This document shows, in pieces, positions 48,715 through 64,000 of a stretch of 64,000 bases of DNA. The first letter of the stretch is position 1. The number at the start of each line of letters is the position of its first letter. The notes under the pieces are model-generated. The model worked only from the letters and a program-made list of their open reading frames with translations. It ran no database searches and was not told where the DNA came from. This DNA is from Marinomonas sp. SBI8L (lineage in GTDB: Bacteria > Pseudomonadota > Gammaproteobacteria > Pseudomonadales > Marinomonadaceae), in assembly GCF_001624705.1 (NCBI RefSeq), contig NZ_JSEO01000002.1, positions 186,001 through 250,000 of the forward strand. Direction: 5' to 3'. The translations under genes and the position numbers were made by a program.

Positions 48715-49026
48715 ATGAAAATTATGAATTGCCCACTAAACGGACCACGAAATATCAGTGAGTTTGTTTATGGTGGAGAAGTTAAGCCTATGCCTGACAT
48801 GGTTAATTGTTCAGATAAAGAATGGGCTGAATACGTTTTCTATTACGACAATACGATACGTATCGTACAAGAGTGGTGGTTTCATTCCCCATCTGGGTAT
48901 TGGTTTATTGCGGAAAGACACACTGCAAGTGATGAGATTTTGAAAACTTATGATCCTTCTGAAATCTTCAAAGAGAGGGTTGATTTCGAGATGAAGGCTA
49001 AGCCAGCTCAGGAGGTTGTATCATGA
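48715..49026 (+). CDS. soxD: Sarcosine oxidase-type delta subunit lacking zinc ligands
   Basis: A 103-residue subunit of the heterotetrameric oxidase. The overall pattern (NCPLNGPRNISEFVYGGE at the start, WAEYVFYYDNT, WWFHSPSGYWFIAERHTASDEI) follows SoxD. However, the second Cys of the N-terminal CPxCGxR motif is Asn 9, and the HxxGC motif reads HSPSG. Only Cys 6 and the His remain of the usual Cys3-His zinc site, so zinc binding is probably lost. It starts 9 bases after soxB and its stop overlaps the soxA start (ATGA). Such deviant delta subunits may mark relatives with a substrate other than sarcosine; that is inference. Confidence 0.85.
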   Translation: MKIMNCPLNGPRNISEFVYGGEVKPMPDMVNCSDKEWAEYVFYYDNTIRIVQEWWFHSPSGYWFIAERHTASDEILKTYDPSEIFKERVDFEMKAKPAQEVVS

Positions 49027-51944
49027 GAGGCTATAACAGATTACCAAATTCAACAGGTTTATTTATTAATCCTGAGAAGCCTGTCAACTTTACTTTTGAG
49101 GGTAAAACCTATCAAGGCGTAGAAGGTGACACAATAGCCAGTGCTTTGATTGCTAATGATCAATGGCTAATGTCTCGCTCATTCAAATACCACCGCCCGC
49201 GTGGGCCGTTAACAATGGCAGGGCAAGATGCTAATACACTCGTTCAGTTAGAAAATGAGCCAAATGTACTAGCCGATAGATCAAGCATTGTTAATGATAT
49301 GAATGTTTTAGGCCAGAACTATAATGGTTCCCTAGAACATGATAAGGATGACAAGCTGGGATATGCCGGCCGCTTTATGCCTGTTGGTTTCTATTACCGT
49401 GCTTTTTATAAGCCAAAAGGTGTTTGGGATAAGTGGGAGCCCGTCATCCGTAAAAAAGCGGGTTTAGGTTATGCTGATTTAAGTTTTACACCTACTTATC
49501 ATGATAAAGCGTATCTGTTTTGTGATCTTGCAGTTATTGGTGCTGGTCCTGCAGGTTTAGCTGCAGCCTTGAAAGCAGCTGATGCTGGTGCAAATGTATT
49601 GCTTGTTGATGAGAACCCAATTATTGGTGGTGCTCTAACTTATCATAGGTTTGATATTCCTGGTAAAAAAGCACAAAGCCTAAGAGAAGAACTAACAGAA
49701 AAAGTTCTTAACCATGCCAATATTCAAACACTGACGAATGCGACTTGTAATGCTTGGTTTGCTGATAATTACTTACCAGTAATTCAGGGCAATCGCATGT
49801 ATAAAGTGCGAGCTAAACAATGTGTGATTGCTTCAGGCGCTTTTGAACAGCATGTAGTATTCCGTAATAACGATGTACCTGGCGTTGTGATGTCTAGTGC
49901 AGCAATGAGACTGATGTCTCAATATGCTGTTAAACCTGGTAATAAAGCGGTTGTATTAACGGGTAATGATGATGGTTACTACTGTGCTCTAGAGCTTGCT
50001 AAGAATGGTGTCGATGTTTCACTAATCATTGATATGCGTAAAGAGGGCGCTTCATCAGAGTTACAAAGTGCTGTTGCGAGTATTGGTTTAGAAGTGCGTC
50101 TAAATTCGACTGTCTATGAAGCACTTCCAAGCTCAGATAAAAAGCATTTATCTGGTGTGATGGTTCATGACATTAGTGGTAAGGGAAGCGTATCCCAAAA
50201 AGGTGTTAAAGTAGACTGTGACTTATTATGTATGTCGTCTGGCTACATGCCTGTATACCAGCTTTTATGCCAAGCCGGTGCTAAGTTAAGTTATAACGAT
50301 GACTCAGCTTTATTCTCCCTAACAAACTTACCTGATAACTGCCAAATTGCTGGATCTGTAAATGGTATACATGATCTCGATGCAGTTGTAAGAGATGGTG
50401 AGCTTGCGGCTCACTATAGTTTGTTATCTTTAGGCTTGGAAACAGTAGAACCACAACCGGTTCACTGCAAGGTTAAAACTAATTTTGAATGGCCAATTTT
50501 CAAACATCCAAAGGGTAAAGACTTTGTTGATTTTGACGAAGACCTTCAAGCTAAGGATATTGTTAACGCGACACGATTAGGCTACAGGGATATTCAGTTA
50601 GTTAAGCGCTTTTCAACCGTTGGTATGGGGCCGTCCCAAGGTAGGCACTCAGCACTACCAACAGCTCGCTTGGTTGCTGATGCAACGAATAGAACTGTTA
50701 CTGAGACAGGTGTTACCACAGCAAGACCACCATTTGTGCCTGAAAAGTTGGCGAATATTGCTGGTCGAATTTTCAACCCGCATAAATATACGCCTATGCA
50801 TAAGCGCCACCTAGAGCTTGGTGCTCATATGATACCGGCTGGTGTGTGGCGTAGACCTGCTTACTATGGTTCACCTGCTGAACGTGATGATGTCATTCAA
50901 CGTGAATCTGTGATGGTCCGTAATGCTGTTGGCATGATAGATGTGAGTACCCTGGGTGGGTTAGAGGTTAGAGGTCCTGATGCGGCTGAATTTGTAAACA
51001 GAATATATACCTTTGCTTTCTTAAAACAGCCTGTAGGTAAGACGCGCTATGCAGTCTTAACTAACGAGCAAGGAGTCGTGATTGATGATGGTGTTGCCTG
51101 TCGTATAGAAGATGATCACTATTATATTACAGCGACAACGAGTGGTGTTGATGCAGTTTATCGTGAAATGACGAAGTGGAATGCTCAATGGCGCTTAGAT
51201 GTAGATATCGCAAATGTAACCTCTGCATTCTCTGCTGTGAACGTGGCGGGTCCATTGTCTAGAAAAGTACTTGAGAAAGTCTGCTCAGACGTTGATCTTT
51301 CTAACGAAGGTTTTCCTTATCTTGGTTATCGTGAAGGCACGATACAAGGTGTGCCAGTGAGACTATTGAGAGTGGGTTTTGTCGGGGAGCTTGGTTATGA
51401 GATTCATATGCCTAGTCTATTTGGTGAAACACTTTGGGATCTCCTAATGGAAGCGGGTAAAGAGTTTGATATGAAACCTTTCGGGGTTGAGACTCAGCGA
51501 CTTTTGAGATTAGAGAAGGGGCATATTATTGTCAGTCAAGACACGGATGGTATGTCTCATCCTGGAGAGTTGTCATTAGACTGGGCAATAAGTCGTAAGA
51601 AACCATTTTTTATCGGTAATCGTTCAGTTGATATCGTAATGGCTCGCGAACAAACCCGTAAACTGGTTGGTTTTAAATTAGATGCTAAATCAAGCAGACC
51701 TAAAGAAGGCCACATAGTGTTGGCTTCAAATACACAAGTAGACTGTGCTATTACGGGTAATGTTACCTCATCTGAATTCTCAACGACTTTAAATGCGAAT
51801 ATCGGTATGGCCTTTGTTGGCATCAATCAGCAAGAAATTGGTTCTAAGTTCCCAATTCGTGTTGATAATGGTGAGCTTGTTATGGCTGAGGTTGTGCCTT
51901 TACCTTTTTATGATGTAGATAATGCCCGTCAGGAGGTGCTGTAA
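49023..51944 (+). CDS. soxA: Sarcosine oxidase-type alpha subunit
   Basis: A 973-residue protein of normal SoxA length. Residues about 15-100 are a ferredoxin-like domain (SRSFKYHRPRGP is the family signature). Residues about 165-480 bind NAD(P) in a Rossmann domain (VIGAGPAGLAAALKAADAGA). Residues about 590-970 are a T-protein/aminomethyltransferase-like folate domain (GMIDVSTLGGLEVRGPDAAEFVNRIYT in pieces; GFVGELGYEIHMP; LEKGHIIVSQDTDG). The folate domain captures the methylene group made by the beta subunit as 5,10-methylene-THF. CAGGAGG precedes the ATG, which overlaps the soxD stop. Confidence 0.93.
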   Translation: MRGYNRLPNSTGLFINPEKPVNFTFEGKTYQGVEGDTIASALIANDQWLMSRSFKYHRPRGPLTMAGQDANTLVQLENEPNVLADRSSIVNDMNVLGQNYNGSLEHDKDDKLGYAGRFMPVGFYYRAFYKPKGVWDKWEPVIRKKAGLGYADLSFTPTYHDKAYLFCDLAVIGAGPAGLAAALKAADAGANVLLVDENPIIGGALTYHRFDIPGKKAQSLREELTEKVLNHANIQTLTNATCNAWFADNYLPVIQGNRMYKVRAKQCVIASGAFEQHVVFRNNDVPGVVMSSAAMRLMSQYAVKPGNKAVVLTGNDDGYYCALELAKNGVDVSLIIDMRKEGASSELQSAVASIGLEVRLNSTVYEALPSSDKKHLSGVMVHDISGKGSVSQKGVKVDCDLLCMSSGYMPVYQLLCQAGAKLSYNDDSALFSLTNLPDNCQIAGSVNGIHDLDAVVRDGELAAHYSLLSLGLETVEPQPVHCKVKTNFEWPIFKHPKGKDFVDFDEDLQAKDIVNATRLGYRDIQLVKRFSTVGMGPSQGRHSALPTARLVADATNRTVTETGVTTARPPFVPEKLANIAGRIFNPHKYTPMHKRHLELGAHMIPAGVWRRPAYYGSPAERDDVIQRESVMVRNAVGMIDVSTLGGLEVRGPDAAEFVNRIYTFAFLKQPVGKTRYAVLTNEQGVVIDDGVACRIEDDHYYITATTSGVDAVYREMTKWNAQWRLDVDIANVTSAFSAVNVAGPLSRKVLEKVCSDVDLSNEGFPYLGYREGTIQGVPVRLLRVGFVGELGYEIHMPSLFGETLWDLLMEAGKEFDMKPFGVETQRLLRLEKGHIIVSQDTDGMSHPGELSLDWAISRKKPFFIGNRSVDIVMAREQTRKLVGFKLDAKSSRPKEGHIVLASNTQVDCAITGNVTSSEFSTTLNANIGMAFVGINQQEIGSKFPIRVDNGELVMAEVVPLPFYDVDNARQEVL

Positions 51945-52534
51945 TGGATTTCTATAACCTAAGCTCGGCTGTAGAGCTTCGTCGCAGTCAATTGGCTGTT
52001 GGCTCACCTGAATTAATAAACTCAAAAATCAGTATGCATGATCATACCTTATTCTCGAGAGTCGGTTTTAGAGGAAGGGGTGTAGCGTCTTTTCTGAGAG
52101 AGCAAGGTATCAGTGTACCTAATGTTCCAAATCAATCTGTTGTAACTGCAGCTGGCGTGCTTGTATTGCGCCTCAGCAACACAGAGTTCTGGCTAATTGA
52201 TACAGATAAATCACAGCATGAGTTTATTGAAGCATTAGAACTTGCATCAAAGGGTGTTACTAATGTTTATCGTTTATATTGTCAGCATAGTCACGGATGT
52301 TTTTTGGTTAAAGGCAAAAATACACCGAATATGTTTGCCAAAGTGTGTGGGGTTGATTTGAGCGAGAAAGTATTTGAATGTTCAAGTATTGCTCAAACTT
52401 CTGTCGCCAGAGTTAACGCAATTATCGCTAAGCAAGTTATATTAGATGAAGAAGGGTATTTTGTTCTATCGGATATCGCTGGCTCACAACACTTGTGGAA
52501 TGCTATTTCTGATGCGAGTGCGGAATTTAATTAA
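51944..52534 (+). CDS. soxG: Sarcosine oxidase-type gamma subunit
   Basis: A 196-residue subunit related to the first part of T-protein-like folds. RVGFRGRGVASFLREQG (about 33-49) and LVLRLSNTEFWLI (about 65-77) follow SoxG. It stabilises the complex and has no catalytic residues of its own. The start shares one base with the soxA stop and has AGGAGG upstream, showing translational coupling. It is the last gene of the purU-folD-soxBDAG operon, which ends at a T-tailed hairpin 63 bases on. No glyA gene follows, unlike many sarcosine oxidase operons. Confidence 0.88.
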   Translation: MDFYNLSSAVELRRSQLAVGSPELINSKISMHDHTLFSRVGFRGRGVASFLREQGISVPNVPNQSVVTAAGVLVLRLSNTEFWLIDTDKSQHEFIEALELASKGVTNVYRLYCQHSHGCFLVKGKNTPNMFAKVCGVDLSEKVFECSSIAQTSVARVNAIIAKQVILDEEGYFVLSDIAGSQHLWNAISDASAEFN

Positions 52535-55098: not shown

Positions 55099-55140
55099 AA
55101 AACCGCCGATAAGAGCTCTTCTTATCGGCGGTTTTTTGTT
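55099..55140 (+). terminator. Strong Rho-independent terminator
   Basis: A perfect 15-bp stem AAAACCGCCGATAAG (55099-55113) with CTTATCGGCGGTTTT (55121-55135) and a T-rich tail, 51 bases after the PAS-protein stop. Confidence 0.92.
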
Positions 55141-55573
55141 TTCAGCTAGGTATTACTGGGATAAACTCTGTGATCAAAGTGGGCCTCGCTAAGCATGAAG
55201 TCTAGCTTTGTGAAAGGTGCAAACGCACGTCATTGATGCACATCACTTTATAAGTTAATTTGCTTATATTATCGAAAAAAATTGTTAATCTGTTTAGGTC
55301 TTTTGCATACACATAGATGTTACAACTAATAACAGAATTTTTGTTGTCAGTATTTCAATGTGAATTATTTTGTAACTTTATTCATTTTTATGTTTTTTTT
55401 ATTTAAAGTAATCTTTAATCTTATGATTCAAATGACGTTTTTGTGCAAATATATGCAAATGGGTTGACTTTTCTTGCACATTTCGAGTCTCATAGGGAAA
55501 TTGAGTTAACTATTAAAACTATAAGCACATGAATGTGGTTGAGTAAAAAATTACGATTTAACCACTGAATGTG
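55141..55573. promoter_or_regulatory. Upstream region of the RiPP (TOMM) operon
   Basis: About 430 AT-rich bases with no gene. It must contain the promoter of the kinase-precursor-amidohydrolase-YcaO operon, since the preceding terminator is strong. I cannot pick out a convincing -35/-10 pair or an operator by eye. Confidence 0.4.
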
Positions 55574-58500
55574 ATGATTAAGGATGATCAGGTGACATTA
55601 GATTCGTCTATCAAAAACCGCTTTCACTCTAGCAATTACCAATTGATCGAAATGATAGGTCAAGGTGGTTTTGGTATGGTGTTTAAAGCAAGGCAAATTA
55701 GCACTGATCAGACCGTAGCAATAAAATTTCTAACTCTTTCCTCTGAGTTTGATAGTGAAAAAAAGCAAAGATACCTTGAGCGATTTCAAAGAGAGACGGC
55801 TTTAAGTAGTCGTTTACAGCATCCAAACATTGTTCGCCTTTTAGATAAAGGAGTTTGTGATGAAGATTTGGTGTATGCCGTATTTGAATATGTTGATGGA
55901 AAATCACTAAAAGAACTTCTTTCTGAAAAAGGTGCACTGCTTCCTGCGGATACTGCCAACTTAATGGGCCAGGTACTCGACGCTTTATCTCATGCCCATG
56001 AGCAAGGTGTTATACATAGAGATTTAAAACCAGCCAACATTATGCTTAGTAAAGTTGGTACAAAAGAACATATTAAAATCTTGGATTTTGGTATTGGTAC
56101 TCTCAGTAATGAAGTGCGACAGCACGACTATAAATCTATCACCCTAACTAACGAGACTTTAGGTACCCCTTCTTACAGTGCTCCAGAACAATTGCGTGGT
56201 GAGTCACCCTCTATTAAAAGTGATATTTATGTTTGGGGGTTAGTATTTATTGAATGCTTGACTGGTGAGCCTGCAATAACTGGAAACAGTCTCGCTTCAA
56301 TATTTCATAAGCAATTAAGCCTTTCGAATGTTCCTATACCAACAGCAGTAGCTGGTCATCCTGTAGCAAACTTATTAAGACGAGTGCTTAATAAAAAAGT
56401 AAATGAGAGGGCTGGAGATGCTGGACTTATTTACAATGACTTAAAGCAGATTAACATAAACTCTTTGGTTGGAGATTTGTCATTAAAGCAAAACTCTAAT
56501 GACAACGAATACGTTAATGAATTTAATCAATATGGTGATAAAAACAAAGAGTTTGCAATTAGCAATTCTATATGTACTGATGATTTTAATAAAGAAAGTG
56601 TTGCACTAGCTTTACAAGAAACCCAAATCAATACTGCTATTGAAATTAGCTCCAGTATTATTGAGCAAAAACAAATTTCTGTTTTATGTGTCACTTTGAC
56701 ATTAAGCGGCATATTGCATTTTGACAGTAGTGAATCAGATTTAGAGTTATTGGATGTTATACATAGAGATAGTCGTTCTCAAGCGATCGATATAGCAATT
56801 CGTTATGGGGCTTATCATGCTGGAACGCTTGGTGATACTTTGTTGTTTTATTTTGGTTATCCATCTGTAAGTGATAATGACAGTCGTCTTTGCGCTCGAG
56901 CTGCTCTTGATATAACAAGTAATATTAACCAAAGAAACTCATTATTAAAGCAAAGTGAAAAGCTTGAAATTGTAGCTAGAATGGGAATGCATACTGGTAT
57001 TGTTAGTCATTATTCAGATGCAATGCCAGAGGGGGCGGCTATAAATATAGCAATGGAACTTTCTAGATTAGCAAGACCCAAACAGGTGCTTTGCTCGCAA
57101 ACAAGCAGAAGGTTACTTGAAGGATATATTGAATTTAAGATGGCTCTTAATACATCTTTAGGGGTTAATAGTTCTCAGGCTGTACACCAATTGATTGGTG
57201 AAAGGCTTAATGAGGCTTTTGGCTTTTTAAGAAGTACACGAACTGCTAATGCTTTTGTAGGGCGTGATGAGGAGTTAGAGGAGCTAAAAAGTTTTTTTAA
57301 TGGATTACATTCTTCGAAAGCTTCTTATGTGCATATATATGGTGAAGCTGGAATTGGTAAGTCAAGGTTGATTTATGAGGTTAGAGGTTTAGCAAATAGC
57401 TTTCAACATTACTTATCTCAATGCTTACCAGAAAACCAGCATAACGGACTATATCCAATTTTAACAATAATAAAAAATAAATATAACATTCAGGATGTAT
57501 CAAGTGAGTATCATGATAAAAACTTTCTTGAAGCAGTGAAGGTTGCATTGAAAGAGAGTGATGAAATTGATTCTGATATTTCTATTCCGATTCTTCTAAC
57601 TTGGTTGAATATGCCAATACCTGAAGAAATGTCAATAGCACCTTTGGCTGCTGAAGTTCAAAAAGATATTTTATTTAAAGTATTAACATTTTTGTTATTA
57701 AAACCTAGTGAAGGTAGTAATGAGAAAATATTATTCTTTATAGAGGATGTTCACTGGTCAGATCCAATTAGCATAGAGTTTTTTTCGATTTTTTATAAAA
57801 ATAAAATGTTTGATAGGAAAAAACATTTTGTTATTTTTACTTCCAGAACAAGAGCTTCCGAAAAAATAAGTATGAGTGATTGTTGCTTGATTGAACTAGT
57901 CGGCTTGAATGCTGATAAGAGTAAACTATTTATTAATGAATTTTTTAATAGAGATAGTATATCGGCTAGGGTTTATGAAGCTATTATTAGGAGGACTGAT
58001 GGTATTCCTTTTTATATGGAAGAGCTTATTAGTATGATGCTTAATAAAAATATAGTTCATCACTTTAATGGTGTTGTTGATTTTGTTAGTGATAGAGCTA
58101 TTAGTTATATACCTGATACATTGTTAGATTCTTTGCAAACTAAGATTGACAGCTTGTTATACTCAAAAGATACTGCTCAAGTGGCCGCCGTTATAGGTCG
58201 AGAATTTGATTATAAACTTCTTTTAAATGTATCAAATAAAAATAGCTTTGAATTGCAGCGAGATTTAAATGAATTAGTTGCTAAAGATTTGCTATATAAG
58301 CAGCGTATTATTGAAGGTGATGTTTATATTTTTAAACATGCTTTAGTAAGAGATGCAGTTTATGGTGGTTTAAATGCAACGAATAAAAAAAGCATACATA
58401 ATGCTATTGCTAATTCGATTGAAAAAGATAAAAGTAATGATGATGTAAATAATTTGCTGTCATTTCATTATTCATCAGCTGAAAATTATGAAAAATCTGC

Positions 58501-59530
58501 AGTTTATGCAAATGCTTCAGCAGTTGCTTGTATGCAGAGAAGTCAATATGAACAAGCTATTCATTATTCAAAAGTGGCCTATGACTCGGCGTGTCATTAT
58601 GACTCAACTTATGAATTCAAGGTTGAAATTAATCAAATTTTAACAACTGCAACAATGATGACCCTAGGTTGGGGCGGAGAAGAGGTTGAAAAGCTAGTTT
58701 CAAGGTCGCAAAAACTAATTGAAAATCTTTCAGAAAAATCAAATGATTTAAAAGCAAGAACTTATCTTAGTCTAGCTACTTATAATAACGTGCGTGGTAA
58801 TCATAATAAAGTTTATGGGATTATTCGACTGGCATTAAGTATTAATGAACTTGATACTGGTTTAAAGTCTGCTCTATATGCACTAAAGGCACATTGTTTA
58901 TGGTGTCAAGGGAAGTTTGATAAGGCACTTAGTTATACAGAAAGAGCAAGGAGCTTATATGATGATAAATTGCATTATGACCACGCAGAGAAGTTTGGGC
59001 ATGACACAAAAGTTTTTGCATTAAGTTTAGAAGCATTAATTTATGCTAGTTCATCGATGCATGAAATAGCTGAAAAAACTATTCAAAACTCTATAAAATA
59101 TGCAGAAGAAATAAATAGTGTTCACAGTTTATGTATGTCAAAGTTTTATTGGTGTTGTTGTTTATACTTAAATAAAAATTTTGATAAATTAAAAAGTACC
59201 TCAGAAGAGATTTTATCAATTTGTGAGCTGAATAATTTAGCAAATTGGGATGGGGTGACGAATATTATGTTCTCCTTAATCAGCGGTGATGCAGATAAGG
59301 CAGAAGATAGTTTGCGAGATTTGCTTAAGGCTGGAGCATCTCAAATGCAGGGTTTTTGGAATTCTATAATTGCTGAAGTTGAAATTGAAAATGGTAATGA
59401 AATTAAAGCTATTTCAAGGTTAGAGGCTTCAATTCAGCAATCAAGAGAAGTAGAGGATTATTTTTTTGTTGAATTACAACAAAAGATAATGTGTAAGTTA
59501 AATCACAATAAATGGAATAGAAGGAATTAA
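55574..59530 (+). CDS. TOMM-system Ser/Thr kinase / cyclase-like / ATPase / TPR fusion protein
   Basis: About 1318 residues. Residues about 20-290 form a Hanks-type kinase with all key residues: GQGGFG loop, VAIKFL lysine, HRDLKPANIM, DFGIG, SAPEQL. Residues about 365-540 align with class III nucleotidyl cyclases (LGDTLLFYFGYP; RMGMHTG), but the first metal Asp is missing (VLCVTLTLSG). Residues about 555-900 are a STAND/AAA-like ATPase with Walker A GEAGIGKS (about 591-598) and Walker B FFIEDVHWSD. The C-terminal 400 residues look like TPR repeats. This order matches the family described as TOMM kinase/cyclase fusions. The precursor gene starts 2 bases later. A GTG at 55591 with AAGGA upstream is an alternative start. 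The 3' half is visibly more AT-rich. Confidence 0.88.
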   Translation: MIKDDQVTLDSSIKNRFHSSNYQLIEMIGQGGFGMVFKARQISTDQTVAIKFLTLSSEFDSEKKQRYLERFQRETALSSRLQHPNIVRLLDKGVCDEDLVYAVFEYVDGKSLKELLSEKGALLPADTANLMGQVLDALSHAHEQGVIHRDLKPANIMLSKVGTKEHIKILDFGIGTLSNEVRQHDYKSITLTNETLGTPSYSAPEQLRGESPSIKSDIYVWGLVFIECLTGEPAITGNSLASIFHKQLSLSNVPIPTAVAGHPVANLLRRVLNKKVNERAGDAGLIYNDLKQININSLVGDLSLKQNSNDNEYVNEFNQYGDKNKEFAISNSICTDDFNKESVALALQETQINTAIEISSSIIEQKQISVLCVTLTLSGILHFDSSESDLELLDVIHRDSRSQAIDIAIRYGAYHAGTLGDTLLFYFGYPSVSDNDSRLCARAALDITSNINQRNSLLKQSEKLEIVARMGMHTGIVSHYSDAMPEGAAINIAMELSRLARPKQVLCSQTSRRLLEGYIEFKMALNTSLGVNSSQAVHQLIGERLNEAFGFLRSTRTANAFVGRDEELEELKSFFNGLHSSKASYVHIYGEAGIGKSRLIYEVRGLANSFQHYLSQCLPENQHNGLYPILTIIKNKYNIQDVSSEYHDKNFLEAVKVALKESDEIDSDISIPILLTWLNMPIPEEMSIAPLAAEVQKDILFKVLTFLLLKPSEGSNEKILFFIEDVHWSDPISIEFFSIFYKNKMFDRKKHFVIFTSRTRASEKISMSDCCLIELVGLNADKSKLFINEFFNRDSISARVYEAIIRRTDGIPFYMEELISMMLNKNIVHHFNGVVDFVSDRAISYIPDTLLDSLQTKIDSLLYSKDTAQVAAVIGREFDYKLLLNVSNKNSFELQRDLNELVAKDLLYKQRIIEGDVYIFKHALVRDAVYGGLNATNKKSIHNAIANSIEKDKSNDDVNNLLSFHYSSAENYEKSAVYANASAVACMQRSQYEQAIHYSKVAYDSACHYDSTYEFKVEINQILTTATMMTLGWGGEEVEKLVSRSQKLIENLSEKSNDLKARTYLSLATYNNVRGNHNKVYGIIRLALSINELDTGLKSALYALKAHCLWCQGKFDKALSYTERARSLYDDKLHYDHAEKFGHDTKVFALSLEALIYASSSMHEIAEKTIQNSIKYAEEINSVHSLCMSKFYWCCCLYLNKNFDKLKSTSEEILSICELNNLANWDGVTNIMFSLISGDADKAEDSLRDLLKAGASQMQGFWNSIIAEVEIENGNEIKAISRLEASIQQSREVEDYFFVELQQKIMCKLNHNKWNRRN

Positions 59531-59532
59531 TT

Positions 59533-60066
59533 ATGTCAGGATTTAATATTGATAACACTAGCGGAATGCCTCATGGTGATGAGCCATTATTGCCTGCCTT
59601 AGATATTATTTATAGCTGGCGCTCAACATGGTTAAGAGCTATTGCTGTTGCTTGGTCTGATGATAACTTTAAGTCAGTACTGCTTGAAGACTCTCAAAAG
59701 GCGTTTGCAATGCTAGGCTTTACTGGTGAGTCTGAAAACGTAAGTTTGTGGAACTTGTTGCATATCAAAGTTGTAGAGTCTCCAACAGATGCTTCTAATC
59801 CTGATGCAGGTGTTGTGCAGGTAGAAATCCCAGTAAACCATCATATTTATTCACCTAAATATGAAGACGTTATGACGAAGGTAAATGGCACGGATAAAGT
59901 TGTTCAAAAAATCGAAGAAAATGGTTGGAAGGAGTCTGTTGTAAATGGTGCATTAAAAATGTATCTAATTCTTCAGCTACCACCTAAGCCGTTAACTGAC
60001 TCTAAAGATCTAGCGCTCATTGATTATGATGCTGCAGGTAAAATATACCCATTTACAGCATCATAA
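59533..60066 (+). CDS. Probable RiPP precursor, nitrile-hydratase-like leader (TOMM family)
   Basis: A 177-residue protein without signal peptide or membrane segment. Residues about 28-105 follow the nitrile-hydratase-alpha-like leader pattern: AIAVAWSDDNFKSVLLEDSQKAFAMLGF (in pieces), then LLHIKVVESPTD and VVQVEIPV. The C-terminal 70 residues (after about 108) would include the core. It is long for such a leader and contains no cysteine, so azolines could form only at Ser or Thr, for example in KPLTDSKD or at the C-terminal TAS. It resembles the two-chain TOMM precursor family named after Burkholderia BMA_0021, as I recall it. It lies 2 bases after the kinase gene and upstream of the modification genes. 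Confidence 0.72.
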   Translation: MSGFNIDNTSGMPHGDEPLLPALDIIYSWRSTWLRAIAVAWSDDNFKSVLLEDSQKAFAMLGFTGESENVSLWNLLHIKVVESPTDASNPDAGVVQVEIPVNHHIYSPKYEDVMTKVNGTDKVVQKIEENGWKESVVNGALKMYLILQLPPKPLTDSKDLALIDYDAAGKIYPFTAS

Positions 60067-60083
60067 GTTAATAGGCTTGATTT

Positions 60084-61277
60084 ATGAAATATATATTGAT
60101 TGACTCGGATAGACATGTAGTTGAACCATCCGCTGTATGGAAAAATGTAGATGGTTATGAGGTTAATTATGTTCATGATACATATGAAAAAATGGGAGAG
60201 AGAGCTGAAAGGTTAGGACCTGATGCAGCAATTCAATTACCTCCAGATATTTATATTGGTAAATTTCTTATTTTAAATAGCTGGGGTGAAAATGAAAGAT
60301 TAGCTTCAGCTTACAAGAGTAAGAATATACAGAAAAAGCTAGGTTCAGGCATGACACCTGAAAAGCAGATCTTATCTATGAATGATAGTGATATCGAGCA
60401 GGCTGCAATATTTCCTAGTTTTGCAATGTATATAGTTAATCATGAAAAAATACCTCCTAGAGTTTCATTGGAATATGCTTGTTCTTATAATAAGTGGTTA
60501 TATGAATATTGTTCCATTAGCCCCAAAAGGCTAAGAGCTGTTGGAGTAATTAGCCGTCACGAACCATCAAACATGGTAGAGCAATTGGAGAAAGTTATAA
60601 GCAATGGCTGGACTTCAATCACCTTGAGACCAGAAGTGATTTGTGGCCGTACATTAGGGCATGAAGATTATAATGATTTCTGGGCTGCATGTGAAAAGCA
60701 TAATATTGCTGTAGCCTTTCATGGAGGAACTAATCTTCATGCGCCAACGGCTGGAACGGATAGGTTTACTTCTCGTTTCGCTATGCATGCTTGTTCGCAC
60801 CCAATGGAGGCTCAAATGGCATTTGTCTCTTTACTTGAGTCAGGTGTATTAGAGCGACACCCAAGATTGAAGTTTGCCTTTTTGGAAGCGGGTGCATCCT
60901 GGGTGCCTCATTGGTTGTGGCGACTGGATAATATTTGTTATCCAGAATTCCCTACTTTAGTTGAAGAAAATATTAAGATGCTGCCATCCGAATATTTTAA
61001 ACGTCAATGTTGGGTTGGAATTGAGCTTGGTGAGCCATGTTTAAGAGAGGTTATTGATGTAATAGGTCATGACAAACTTTTGTATGGTAGTGACTTTCCT
61101 CATCCTGATCATTTGCAATTTACGACTGAAGATATAGCTCAACAACTCGAAGAGCTGACTGAGATTGAATTGCAAGCAGTGTTAGAGCAAAACGCTAAAG
61201 ATTTTTATGGCTTTGAAGACATAAAAAATGAAGAGGTTTTGTTTAAATCTGAAGATCAACTGGCTGAGGTAAACTAG
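60084..61277 (+). CDS. Metal-dependent amidohydrolase (Amidohydro_2 / ACMSD-like) of the TOMM locus
   Basis: A 397-residue TIM-barrel hydrolase of the amidohydrolase-2 family. The N-terminal metal site reads DSDRHVVEP (residues about 6-14), a D-x-H version of the usual H-x-H. The other ligands are in place: His in AVAFHGGTN (about 213), His in HACSHPMEAQ (about 236 or 239) and Asp in LYGSDFPHPDH (about 336). Members decarboxylate or hydrolyse small molecules. Here, between the precursor and the YcaO gene in one operon, it could trim or hydrolyse the modified peptide, as the unrelated amidohydrolase does in bottromycin. That parallel is inference. Confidence 0.82.
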   Translation: MKYILIDSDRHVVEPSAVWKNVDGYEVNYVHDTYEKMGERAERLGPDAAIQLPPDIYIGKFLILNSWGENERLASAYKSKNIQKKLGSGMTPEKQILSMNDSDIEQAAIFPSFAMYIVNHEKIPPRVSLEYACSYNKWLYEYCSISPKRLRAVGVISRHEPSNMVEQLEKVISNGWTSITLRPEVICGRTLGHEDYNDFWAACEKHNIAVAFHGGTNLHAPTAGTDRFTSRFAMHACSHPMEAQMAFVSLLESGVLERHPRLKFAFLEAGASWVPHWLWRLDNICYPEFPTLVEENIKMLPSEYFKRQCWVGIELGEPCLREVIDVIGHDKLLYGSDFPHPDHLQFTTEDIAQQLEELTEIELQAVLEQNAKDFYGFEDIKNEEVLFKSEDQLAEVN

Positions 61278-61281
61278 TTAC

Positions 61282-63462
61282 ATGGAAAAATCGTCTAGTG
61301 TTTATCATTGGCATGGTCAATTTAATGTCTATGTGTTGAAAAACAAAGATGTCTTGCTGCTGTCCTCTGGGCAGCAGCTTTTATTGCCACAAGAGCAGTT
61401 CCCTTTTGTTGATGAGATTGATGGAAAAAAAACGCTTGATGACATCTTGGTAACTAAGATAAATTTGGATGAGAGAGCGTCGCTTTTCTTATATCAAATA
61501 AACAAACTAGTTGAACTCAACGTAATTAATAAGAGTGCTGGAAATAATGTATATCAAAAGCCTTCATTTGTGGGTGAGCCAATTTCCAGGCTGATTCAAA
61601 GTTCAGAATCAAATATAACCTTTAGCTCCTTAAGTCTGTGTAATGACGCAGTAATAAAGCAAATTGAGCAAAGCCTAACTGCTAGCCTAAATCAAGGTTA
61701 CAATACTGATAAAGACTTGCAGCTAATAGTTGTTGATGATTTATTAGATAAACGAATCGAAGATTGCATTAAATCTGACAATTTTCTTGTGCTTAAAGTC
61801 TCAGGCGAAGCAATTAGTGTAACCTCTATCTTTAGTAAGCATGAGGTCTCTTTATTTATCAAGCTACAAGGTCAGCTTCTAGAGAATCAACCTGTACGTA
61901 AAACTCTAGAGCTTTGTTATCCGACTGATAGTCATGCTTATCCTTTTGAATTTCTTGAGCAGCTTAACAGTAAGTGTATAGATGCTATAGACAGGCTATT
62001 AGAAGAACAGTTCTTTGCATTTGCTAAGTGCGACAATAAAGCAATATCAATTTATAGGCCTAATACTGATTCGTTTGAATCTCATGTTATTAATAATGCT
62101 TTAGGCAACAATGTTGAATTTTCAAATCAGATTGATAGTCCTATAGAGTTAGAGTCGTGCATTAGTCGATTTAATATCGATGGCGGTTCTAGGAGTGTTA
62201 CAGCAACACAAACGGTAGAAAAATTAATGCCGTTAGTCAGTCCTATTACAGGTGTAATTAATCATCTCGAGGTGATAGGTGAAAACCCGAGCTCGCCGAT
62301 AAAAATTTATCGTACTGGATTTTTTAAAACACCAAATAAAGCTGAATTAACTGAGTTTGATCGAAATAGCTTTGTTCAGATATGTTTAGGTAAAGGTGTA
62401 AGTCACGATCAATCTAAAGCGAGTGCCTTATCTGAGGCAATTGAAAGATATGCTGCCCTTTATCAGTCTGATGTGGATTTATTGGAATTAAAACACTCAG
62501 AGCTTTTAGATAAGGGGTTTAGAGCAGTTAATTTTCAGTCTTTAGTGCCATATAGTGCCGACCAGTATCATAAATTTAATCAAGCTGATCATCCGGACTC
62601 CAAGCTTAAGCAGGCTGCGAAACCTTACAGGGATGAATTGATACATTGGTTACCAACTTGGTCTCTGACACTATCAGAGCAGGTATATGTGCCGCTTTCC
62701 CAATGTTTCAGTAATATTCCTTTTTCAGATGATGAATTTGGTCGTTGGCATTCAAATGGTTGTGCGGCTGGAAACACGTTAGAAGAGGCTATTTTACAAG
62801 CGCTTTTTGAGTTGATAGAAAGAGATGCAACTGCAATTTGGTGGTATAACAAGTTAGTTTGTCCAAGGTATGATCTCGATAAGTTAGATCCAGACAACTT
62901 ACAGAAGCTTGATAAGTGTTTGAGTCCTGATAGTGAAGTTGGCCACGACTACTGGGTTTTGGACTTAACGTCTGACTTAGGAATACCCGTTATGGGGGCT
63001 TTCGGCAGAGATAAGGTGACAGGCGGCTTAGTAATGGGCTTTGGCTGTCATTTGATCCCAGAAATGGCGGCTCAAAGAGCTTTGACAGAGCTTTGCCAGT
63101 TGATTCCGATTAGAGATCAAAATGCAGCACCTTTTGACTTTGATTTAATTGAAGTGGGAGAGCACCTCGAAGGTTCAAGTGAGTTAAAATCTAATACCTA
63201 TGCTATTAAGCCTAGTTCAGATATTAAAGATGATATTTCGGCTGTCGTCTCGCAGTTAAAGCTAAATGGTATGGAGGTGATGGTGTTAAATTATAGTCGT
63301 GCTCATATTCCATTATTTACTGCGAAGGTATTTGTACCAGGTTTGTGTCACATTTGGCCCCAGTTAGCGAATGAACGTTTGTATCAAGCGCCAATAAAAA
63401 TGGGGTATTTTGCGGTTGCGAACACAGAGCAATCAATTAATCAGCAAGCCTTGTATATATAA
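61282..63462 (+). CDS. RRE / E1-like / YcaO fusion cyclodehydratase of the TOMM locus
   Basis: A 726-residue protein. Residues about 1-95 resemble the peptide-recognition winged helix (PFVDEIDGKKTLDDILV). Residues about 95-300 match the reduced E1/ThiF-like partner domain (LIVVDDLLDKRIEDCI; FLVLKVSGEAISV), but the CxxC zinc motif is absent. Residues about 330-726 are a YcaO domain with ATP-binding acidic motifs ASALSEAIERYAALYQ (about 380-395) and ALFELIERDATAIWW (about 507-521). It should use ATP to activate backbone amides of the precursor and form azolines, or another backbone change. The C-terminus ends INQQALYI rather than the proline-rich PxPxP of most cyclodehydratases. It starts 4 bases after the amidohydrolase stop. 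Confidence 0.88.
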   Translation: MEKSSSVYHWHGQFNVYVLKNKDVLLLSSGQQLLLPQEQFPFVDEIDGKKTLDDILVTKINLDERASLFLYQINKLVELNVINKSAGNNVYQKPSFVGEPISRLIQSSESNITFSSLSLCNDAVIKQIEQSLTASLNQGYNTDKDLQLIVVDDLLDKRIEDCIKSDNFLVLKVSGEAISVTSIFSKHEVSLFIKLQGQLLENQPVRKTLELCYPTDSHAYPFEFLEQLNSKCIDAIDRLLEEQFFAFAKCDNKAISIYRPNTDSFESHVINNALGNNVEFSNQIDSPIELESCISRFNIDGGSRSVTATQTVEKLMPLVSPITGVINHLEVIGENPSSPIKIYRTGFFKTPNKAELTEFDRNSFVQICLGKGVSHDQSKASALSEAIERYAALYQSDVDLLELKHSELLDKGFRAVNFQSLVPYSADQYHKFNQADHPDSKLKQAAKPYRDELIHWLPTWSLTLSEQVYVPLSQCFSNIPFSDDEFGRWHSNGCAAGNTLEEAILQALFELIERDATAIWWYNKLVCPRYDLDKLDPDNLQKLDKCLSPDSEVGHDYWVLDLTSDLGIPVMGAFGRDKVTGGLVMGFGCHLIPEMAAQRALTELCQLIPIRDQNAAPFDFDLIEVGEHLEGSSELKSNTYAIKPSSDIKDDISAVVSQLKLNGMEVMVLNYSRAHIPLFTAKVFVPGLCHIWPQLANERLYQAPIKMGYFAVANTEQSINQQALYI

Positions 63463-63561
63463 ATTTTACTTATAGGTTTGTTTAAAACTGTAATTATCTG
63501 TAATGGTGTCAGTGTATGGGCGTTGGTACAGTAAAATAACTTAAGGATGAGGGGAAAGGGT

Positions 63562-64000
63562 ATGGCAATTCTAATTAACGGCAGTACAGGTGAGAAAGTC
63601 ATCATACAGCCTCAACATATTTTTGGTCGTCACCCAACGACTGAAACAGAATTGACTCAGCCTGAAGCGTCACGCACCCATGCAGTTGCGATTTGGGATG
63701 GCGAAGGCTGGGTGCTTCAAGATATGAGTACAAACGGTACTTTTATTAATGGATCTAAAATTGTTCGAGGTGAAAAAACACGAATCAATTTAGATGACGA
63801 AATTCAGTTTGGCGGCTTAGAGGTTTCATCTTGGTATGTTAAAAACCTTGAGCCACCAGCTAGTATGTTATTGCCTGTTACTAAAGGCCTGCCTATTATC
63901 TATTTGAATGGCATTAATGTGCTTCCATCAGAAGAAAACCCAGAAGTAGCTATTTATCAAAATTCTCGTGGCATGTGGATGTGTGAGAATGACACTGGCC
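63562..64000 (+). CDS. FHA-domain protein (5' part, cut by the window end)
   Basis: At least 146 residues, running off the window, from the ATG at 63562 with GGGGAAAGGG just upstream. Residues about 1-90 are a forkhead-associated domain with the phosphothreonine-binding set: GR in IFGRHP (22-23), SRTHA (about 38-42) and DMSTNGTFING (about 54-64). The part beyond residue 95 is not recognised. FHA domains bind phosphothreonine, so a phosphorylated target of the kinase encoded 4 kb upstream is the obvious ligand. It starts 99 bases after the YcaO stop in the same direction and is probably co-transcribed. Confidence 0.85.
   Translation, partial: MAILINGSTGEKVIIQPQHIFGRHPTTETELTQPEASRTHAVAIWDGEGWVLQDMSTNGTFINGSKIVRGEKTRINLDDEIQFGGLEVSSWYVKNLEPPASMLLPVTKGLPIIYLNGINVLPSEENPEVAIYQNSRGMWMCENDTG

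Follow-up and report, generated by a model that had tools for sequence, protein, structure and literature searches.

Large Ser/Thr kinases were described in 2010 beside the precursors of the NHLP-Burk loci, a group of thiazole/oxazole-modified microcin (TOMM) loci, and the precursors were noted to end in Cys or Cys-Cys (Haft, Basu and Mitchell 2010, PMC2887384, in the accessible part of that paper). In the literature that we searched, no mechanism for kinase-linked loci was found and the terms "YcaO" and "FHA domain" never occurred together; TIGR03903 was not named there, and TIGR03795 was named only in PMC2887384. Here we analyze a stretch of 64,000 nucleotides from Marinomonas sp. SBI8L, referred to as the window (bases 186001-250000 of the 481,623-base contig NZ_JSEO01000002.1; genome 5.19 Mb), in which five genes on the same strand encode a TIGR03903 kinase, a nitrile hydratase (NHase)-like precursor, an Amidohydro_2 protein, a YcaO fusion and an FHA protein. 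An original prediction made from this DNA took them for a TOMM locus tied to phosphothreonine signaling, with phosphorylation controlling, or being part of, maturation or export of the peptide. The locus belongs among the kinase-linked NHLP-Burk TOMM loci, and its FHA protein and amidohydrolase are additions relative to the accessible part of PMC2887384. On balance, and with moderate confidence, we favor its interpretation as a self-contained, signal-gated operon for a ribosomally synthesized and post-translationally modified peptide (RiPP), in which a kinase of the STAND type (signal transduction ATPase with numerous domains) acts through the FHA regulator on the operon's own transcription, followed by modification of the precursor tail, in the manner of PknH-EmbR.

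Results

A bounded operon of five genes

The five genes are all on the + strand and are separated by intergenic gaps of 2, 17, 4 and 99 nt; their open reading frames (ORFs) agreed with the original prediction in set, direction and spacing. The first gene (55571..59530) encodes a Ser/Thr kinase with a degenerate cyclase domain, a STAND-like AAA ATPase and a C-terminal region. Its start candidates are GTG 55571, ATG 55574 and GTG 55592, and the true start may be the last of these, which has AAGGA upstream. It is followed by genes for an NHase-alpha-like, precursor-like protein of 177 aa with the tail ALIDYDAAGKIYPFTAS (59533..60066), an Amidohydro_2 family protein (60084..61277), and a YcaO fusion with an N-terminal part of ~350 aa before the YcaO domain (61282..63462). 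The fifth gene starts at ATG 63562, where its relatives also begin, and runs past the end of the window (63562..64000). Extension past position 64000 completed this gene, with its stop at contig position 250533 (window-equivalent 64533), and gave a protein of 323 aa with an FHA domain, a middle region and a C-terminal winged-helix-like domain. The second precursor, transporter or protease that had been anticipated there was not seen among the downstream ORFs, read by eye up to an IclR-type gene, and an exporter, as the idea of export would require, was not observed beside these genes.

An intrinsic-terminator-like hairpin of 17 pairs with a T-rich tail (55099..55135, + strand) ends the preceding PAS-gene unit, and another terminator-like hairpin, detected on both strands, lies 3' of the FHA gene (equivalents 64550-64582). 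The genes beyond the latter are on the opposite strand and look metabolic. Terminator-like hairpins thus flank the five genes and the next genes face the other way, which bounds the operon and makes the FHA gene the last one in it. All remaining terminator-like sites of the operon are intragenic, and the YcaO-FHA gap has none. The 3' half of the kinase gene (57300-59530) has a G+C content of 30.7% compared with 38.1% for the window.

An intact kinase with a degenerate cyclase domain

The kinase protein matched TIGR03903 at 894.7 bits, above the curated cut-off of 705.75, which bears out the predicted relation to TOMM kinase loci. We aligned it in 72 rows, in which contigs L040, L041 and L073 duplicate L077, L078 and L140 and are therefore counted twice (numbers with L are our labels for loci and their stretches). 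The catalytic Lys, Asp and Asn and the Asp of DFG are kept in 71 of the 72 rows, the exception being a fragment, and the Walker A Lys-Ser and Walker B Glu-Asp are kept in all 72. The kinase is thus a complete writer, as had been claimed.

The situation is different for the cyclase half of the kinase/cyclase label. Residues 408-524 of the kinase matched PF00211 weakly (21.6 bits against a cut-off of 21.9), and no other PF00211 match was present in the genome of the window at E 0.001. The first metal-binding Asp is kept in 1/72 rows and the base-binding Lys in 0/72, whereas both occur in 10/10 of the real cyclases fetched from the same order for reference; in the window the Asp is replaced by Thr and the Lys by Gly. 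As judged from these residues, the cyclase domain of the kinase protein is degenerate. A catalytically competent class III cyclase was rejected because the metal Asp and base Lys are lost almost throughout the 72 rows.

Linkage of the FHA gene to kinase and YcaO genes

Related loci were collected by a YcaO-profile scan of named genomes, in which the best 80 of 260 hits represented 78 distinct loci, and five seed loci supplied the profiles by which the presence of kinase and FHA genes was judged. Several of the named loci share a genome or a genus and are hence not independent. A TIGR03903-type kinase was present in 68 of the 78 loci, and 46 of these 68 also carried an FHA gene (45 full length and one fragment, L105), in organisms ranging over Gammaproteobacteria, Burkholderiales, SAR324 and Bacteroidota. 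Because the FHA family was present in only 4 of 299 genomes sampled from the phylum, the window's own counted, yet in 46/68 loci, the linkage of the FHA gene to the kinase and YcaO genes is not due to chance. The original prediction had named an FHA gene never linked in homologous loci, or an unrelated downstream operon, as outcomes that would speak against it; neither was borne out, and the linkage was found to be conserved.

The arrangement of these loci varies. The FHA gene is 3' of the YcaO gene in Marinomonas, Psychromonas, Shewanella, Variovorax, Delftia and Paracidovorax, and 5' of the kinase gene in Burkholderia, Massilia, Derxia, Trinickia, Tenacibaculum and SAR324. Among the 68 loci with kinase and YcaO genes, an amidohydrolase was found anywhere in the stretch in 30, an LCM-type methyltransferase in 18 and a PhyH hydroxylase in 16, the latter two assignments having been confirmed against Pfam for one example each; in Variovorax and Delftia the LCM methyltransferase replaces the amidohydrolase. 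The locus is sporadic: relatives of the FHA protein were present in none of the four same-genus genomes sampled, two of which had weak YcaO matches only (31% identity) and two none. Among plasmids, 23 records matched the YcaO protein, none with at least 60% identity and none covering 80%.

The FHA protein and its C-terminal domain

The FHA domain matched PF00498 with a score of 54.6. In an alignment of 37 proteins, picked from 49 found in the named loci, G22, R23, S37, H40, N58 and G59 are invariant, and the residues of the phosphothreonine site (GR, SxxH, NG) are also present in the FHA protein of the window. By these sequence criteria the phosphothreonine reader is complete, in agreement with the original prediction. 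Assignment to TagH of the type VI secretion system was rejected, as TIGR03354 gave 47.9 against a cut-off of 120.25 (for the window's 151-residue FHA fragment only). A second FHA-like paralogue at L041:792-1718 has a degenerate FHA half and an intact C-terminal domain, and an orphan FHA-winged-helix-like gene recurs in a Pseudoalteromonas neighborhood without a kinase (L202, L204, L206).

For comparison with the C-terminal domain we used 23 OmpR-type domains from this genome. The local hhalign score was 28.2 with a probability of 63%, while 42 windows of unrelated families scored 16.8 or less and the reversed profile 11.5; with five divergent members added, the score was 28.5 and the probability 65%. 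End-to-end alignment of the C-terminal ~115 columns to the OmpR-type domains gave an E value of 2.9e-4, compared with 0.54 and 0.84 for the FHA and middle segments. The profile similarity is weak to moderate, and these comparisons give moderate support, though not proof, that the C-terminal domain may be similar to an OmpR-type winged helix.

Of the 11 loci inspected in which an FHA relative lies away from YcaO, 7 (L190-L194, L205, L207) contain a Ser/Thr kinase gene no more than ~3 kb from it. The kinase gene is adjacent or at most 0.6 kb away in L191-L194 and L205, 1.6 kb away in L207 and 3.0 kb away in L190. The count was 5/5 for the first five loci and became 7/11 once more were added, for which only six stretches around FHA matches in genomes with FHA-less loci were opened (L202-L207). 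In Sorangium, a single ORF (L210:2511-4622) joins TIR, a Ser/Thr kinase and the C-terminal domain of the FHA protein, and the same domain occurs in two 452-residue Pseudoalteromonas frames (L208, L209), one of which was scanned and had no Pfam match. The kinase neighbors, the Sorangium fusion and the Pseudoalteromonas frames together suggest that the C-terminal domain is associated more with kinases than with peptide enzymes. A protein of 157-179 aa is encoded beside kinase-FHA pairs that lack YcaO (L192:12799-13272, L194:6048-6566, L205:12123-12662), with a weak DP-EP match in the case of L194; such pairs may control another small protein.

DNA upstream of the operon

A conserved footprint of ~85 bases lies upstream of the kinase gene (55413..55497, + strand; extent judged by eye) and is shared with Marinomonas sp. 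MED121 (L076). Its local alignment score was 139, whereas none of 300 shuffles scored above 45, and the flanking upstream DNA aligns poorly. Within it is a TGCAAAT-N3-TGCAAAT direct repeat with 10-bp spacing (55444..55460, + strand), which places the copies one helical turn apart and ends three bases before TTGACT (55464-55469). The 28-mer pattern holding the repeat occurred nowhere else in the genome when up to three mismatches were allowed. OmpR-type regulators often bind repeats spaced like this pair, and the repeat is a candidate site for the FHA protein.

The precursor tail and the modifying enzymes

The precursor scored 33.4 bits against TIGR03795, under the cut-off of 41 that its relatives pass (L042 with 101.5 and L088 with 93.6), and it agrees at 9 of 17 positions with motif 1 of Haft et al. 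(PMC2887384), as given in the available part of that source. To describe the tail, we used 72 hand-checked precursors, taken from the window and from all named loci with kinase and YcaO genes but one (67 of 68); L108 was dropped as no tail was found. The bodies of some of these ORFs contain extra residues, as reading began at the stop before them. The pattern [PLV]F[TS]x0-3 ends 67 of the 72 precursors, 57 with Thr and 10 with Ser, and the five exceptions are L105 (PFCSL), L110 (PITGC), L111, L112 and L144. A looser pattern, [PLV][FI][TSC]x0-3, covers 69 of them (58 Thr, 10 Ser and 1 Cys). Cys is present within the last six residues in 61/72 precursors and makes up 17.6% of the residues there versus 0.8% elsewhere. 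The window has a single precursor with a Cys-free variant of the tail, PFTAS, and lacks a tandem or fused precursor pair ending in Cys or Cys-Cys. Since NHLP and Nif11 cores are described as hypervariable (PMC4603692, in the portion available), the fixed tail sets this clade apart.

The amidohydrolase matched PF04909 with a score of 90.3; it has conserved His/Asp/Glu of a likely metal site, with H213, D337 and H340 conserved in 33/33 rows. The YcaO protein matched PF02624 at 249.9 bits, and E385, E388, R389, E501, E502, E510, E513 and R514, which we take to be the residues of the ATP site, are invariant in 91/91 rows. It misses TIGR03604 (196.4 against 219.25), as do L073 (215.3) and L088 (172.6), whereas L222 passes at 257.5. 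The leader-binding domain TIGR03882 gave no match in the YcaO protein of the window or in L088 and is present in L222 and L073. Two or three YcaO genes lie behind the precursor in L082, L084, L086, L089 and L103. The PxPxP motif of YcaO proteins, named in the accessible text of the daptide paper (PMC12338566), is present at the C-terminus in 0/91 rows. The same text claims the first YcaO pathway that directly modifies a C-terminal residue and suggests that removal of the carboxylate charge may help; by analogy, the LCM methyltransferase of Variovorax and Delftia could likewise remove this charge. It is likely that the enzymes of the operon act on the end of a small protein and modify it there.

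Neighboring genes

Just past the end of the window, on the opposite strand, is a gene set together with an IclR-type regulator (L002:3588-10229, the regulator gene at L002:9453), which presumably represents beta-hydroxyaspartate cycle genes in the order bhcDCBA. Upstream of the PAS gene, at 49023-52534, are two genes that we assume to encode sarcosine-oxidase-like alpha and gamma subunits, the second of which has a weak, sub-cut-off GCV_T match.

Discussion

We propose that a soluble STAND-type sensor, composed of the kinase, the dead cyclase, the AAA domain and C-terminal repeats, would bind a signal, oligomerize and then autophosphorylate on threonine. The FHA protein would dock on the phosphothreonine of the sensor, and its winged-helix-like C-terminal domain would then alter the transcription of its own operon, with the TGCAAAT repeat upstream of the kinase gene as the candidate site. 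The YcaO fusion and amidohydrolase so induced would modify the short fixed C-terminal tail of the precursor (PFT-A-S in the window; PFTC/PFTCC in relatives), possibly with azoline formation. A wider conjecture, to which we give a minor chance, is that the product is an intracellular protein rather than an exported bacteriocin, its tail (PF-T/S-C/S) being capped by YcaO chemistry together with a lineage-specific carboxyl methyltransferase, hydroxylase or amidohydrolase. The STAND phosphothreonine relay from kinase to FHA-winged-helix factor would then switch on a signal-gated effector or cofactor system that lineages as far apart as Proteobacteria and Bacteroidota would share, and cyanobacteria would have a His-Asp version of it.

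A number of observations weigh against a transcriptional role of the FHA protein. One of 60 column shuffles scored 27.8, near the real score of 28.2 (the next best was 18.1), and the probability of the end-to-end alignment to OmpR-type domains was as low as 18%. No Pfam family matched the C-terminal domain: the scan gave only FHA-type families plus three single weak hits for the 37 aligned members, and only FHA-type families plus weak hits under the cut-offs for the five divergent members. A PDB sequence search with this domain gave nothing convincing. The upstream footprint rests on two genomes and other genera differ upstream, while promoter-like matches within the operon showed no excess (33 versus 36.1 in shuffles). 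Four of the 11 FHA loci away from YcaO have no nearby kinase (L202, L203, L204, L206), although in three of these the FHA gene seems to be one and the same orphan, found in different species. In addition, 22 of the 68 loci with kinase and YcaO genes had no linked FHA gene in the stretch examined: 18 in Pseudoalteromonas, Oceanospirillum L083, Sorangium, Polyangium and one metagenome-assembled genome (MAG) of Chitinispirillaceae. Six of the 22 could hide the gene in a short stretch, as L083 and L098 reach contig ends and L100, L104, L107 and L109 have less than 1 kb before the kinase. When the 20 genomes other than those of L083 and L098 were searched, 18 held a full-length FHA relative somewhere, Sorangium had partial matches only and the Chitinispirillaceae MAG none. 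In the six opened stretches (L202-L207) the relative sits on a different contig from the locus, and in the genome of L107 the relatives include the gene of a second locus, L093. Such FHA genes in trans are weak evidence of working with the TOMM kinase because one relative in Pseudoalteromonas has the appearance of an orphan core gene.

The link to phospho-signaling made by the original prediction stands, whereas its placement in maturation or export fares less well. If the FHA protein acted there by scaffolding a phosphorylated enzyme or precursor, its position in the same operon in 46/68 loci and its intact phosphothreonine site would be as expected, but its relatives would not be expected near kinases in YcaO-less loci (7/11), nor its C-terminal domain to resemble DNA-binding domains, and the 22 loci without a linked FHA gene count against this role as well; we regard it as unlikely. 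A transcriptional role is more economical since kinases are nearby without YcaO and the C-terminal domain is possibly a winged helix, and a transcription switch like that of PknH/EmbR agrees better with the findings than maturation does. It is very unlikely that the kinase phosphorylates the conserved tail Thr of the precursor and that the FHA protein reads the tail. The Thr is found in 58/72 precursors, but FHA domains are Thr-specific and should not tolerate the Ser of 10/72, which speaks against phosphorylation in maturation more generally; one precursor has Cys at this position. No more than three residues follow the tail position, and FHA domains usually read positions beyond the phosphothreonine. 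The Cys in the last six residues of 61/72 precursors fits heterocyclization better.

A quite unlikely alternative to the transcriptional switch is a defense-like or cell-death system, in which the STAND kinase would sense an invader and release a toxic modified protein. The STAND-like layout of the sensor, the TIR-kinase fusion of the C-terminal domain, the sporadic presence of the locus and the lack of an exporter next to the operon agree with it, and coupling of S/T/Y kinases to winged helix-turn-helix domains is reported in conflict systems in the accessible part of PMC7159879. However, PADLOC matched the kinase protein only and none of the other four proteins, with all of the 25 of 35 matches listed starting in the kinase domain, and the neighboring genes look metabolic. 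As to the possibility that the kinase-cyclase makes cyclic AMP as a second messenger and the FHA protein is unrelated, the weak PF00211 match would be in line with it, but the loss of the metal Asp and base Lys that real cyclases keep makes it almost certainly wrong.

The conserved FHA protein offers a testable output for the TOMM kinase, and the degenerate cyclase removes a misleading one from the kinase/cyclase name. The near-invariant precursor tail shows which few residues to follow by mass spectrometry. If our proposal is true, peptide biosynthesis would be governed here, outside the mycobacteria, by a phosphothreonine switch that can be compared with a two-component system, and a histidine-kinase version of the switch would adjoin a distant cyanobacterial YcaO relative.

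The locus shares with the NHLP-Burk TOMM loci, as described in the available part of PMC2887384, the large Ser/Thr kinase, the long NHase-like precursor, the YcaO fusion, the heterocyclizable end residues and the lack of a transporter of the kinds tracked there. Unlike them, it has a single precursor that is under the TIGR03795 cut-off and lacks a terminal Cys, a YcaO protein without TIGR03882 and an added amidohydrolase; neither "FHA" nor "amidohydrolase" occurs in the main text of PMC2887384, as far as that text was accessible. A closer counterpart is on a plasmid of Paraburkholderia sp. PGU19 (L222), with the same FHA family (345 bits) and the same kinds of kinase, precursor and YcaO protein. 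Its annotated order is FHA, TOMM kinase/cyclase, two BMA_0021/22 precursors and a leader-binding YcaO, with the FHA gene 8 nt before the kinase; it differs from the window in having two precursors (the second ending YLFTCC), no amidohydrolase and the FHA gene at the start of the operon. The PknH-EmbR pair of Mycobacterium likewise combines a Ser/Thr kinase with an FHA protein that has an OmpR-type DNA-binding domain (PMC4601284, available part). EmbR is described there with an N-terminal DNA-binding domain, BTA and a C-terminal FHA domain, whereas in the window protein the FHA domain is N-terminal and the winged-helix-like domain C-terminal; no BTA domain was found in the 37 aligned members, and the target in the window would be a RiPP operon. 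Finally, a plasmid of Nostoc sp. MS1 (L223) has the same kind of YcaO protein (31% identity), Amidohydro_2 and a giant kinase-AAA sensor, in the order (L223:4577-15566) hypothetical protein ending IPYTC, YcaO, amidohydrolase, kinase-AAA-GAF-histidine kinase and response regulator. Unlike in the window, the sensor ends in GAF-histidine kinase and is followed by a response regulator, and the annotation of the stretch lists no FHA. Such a pairing of similar enzymes with a different output fits an interchangeable regulatory module.

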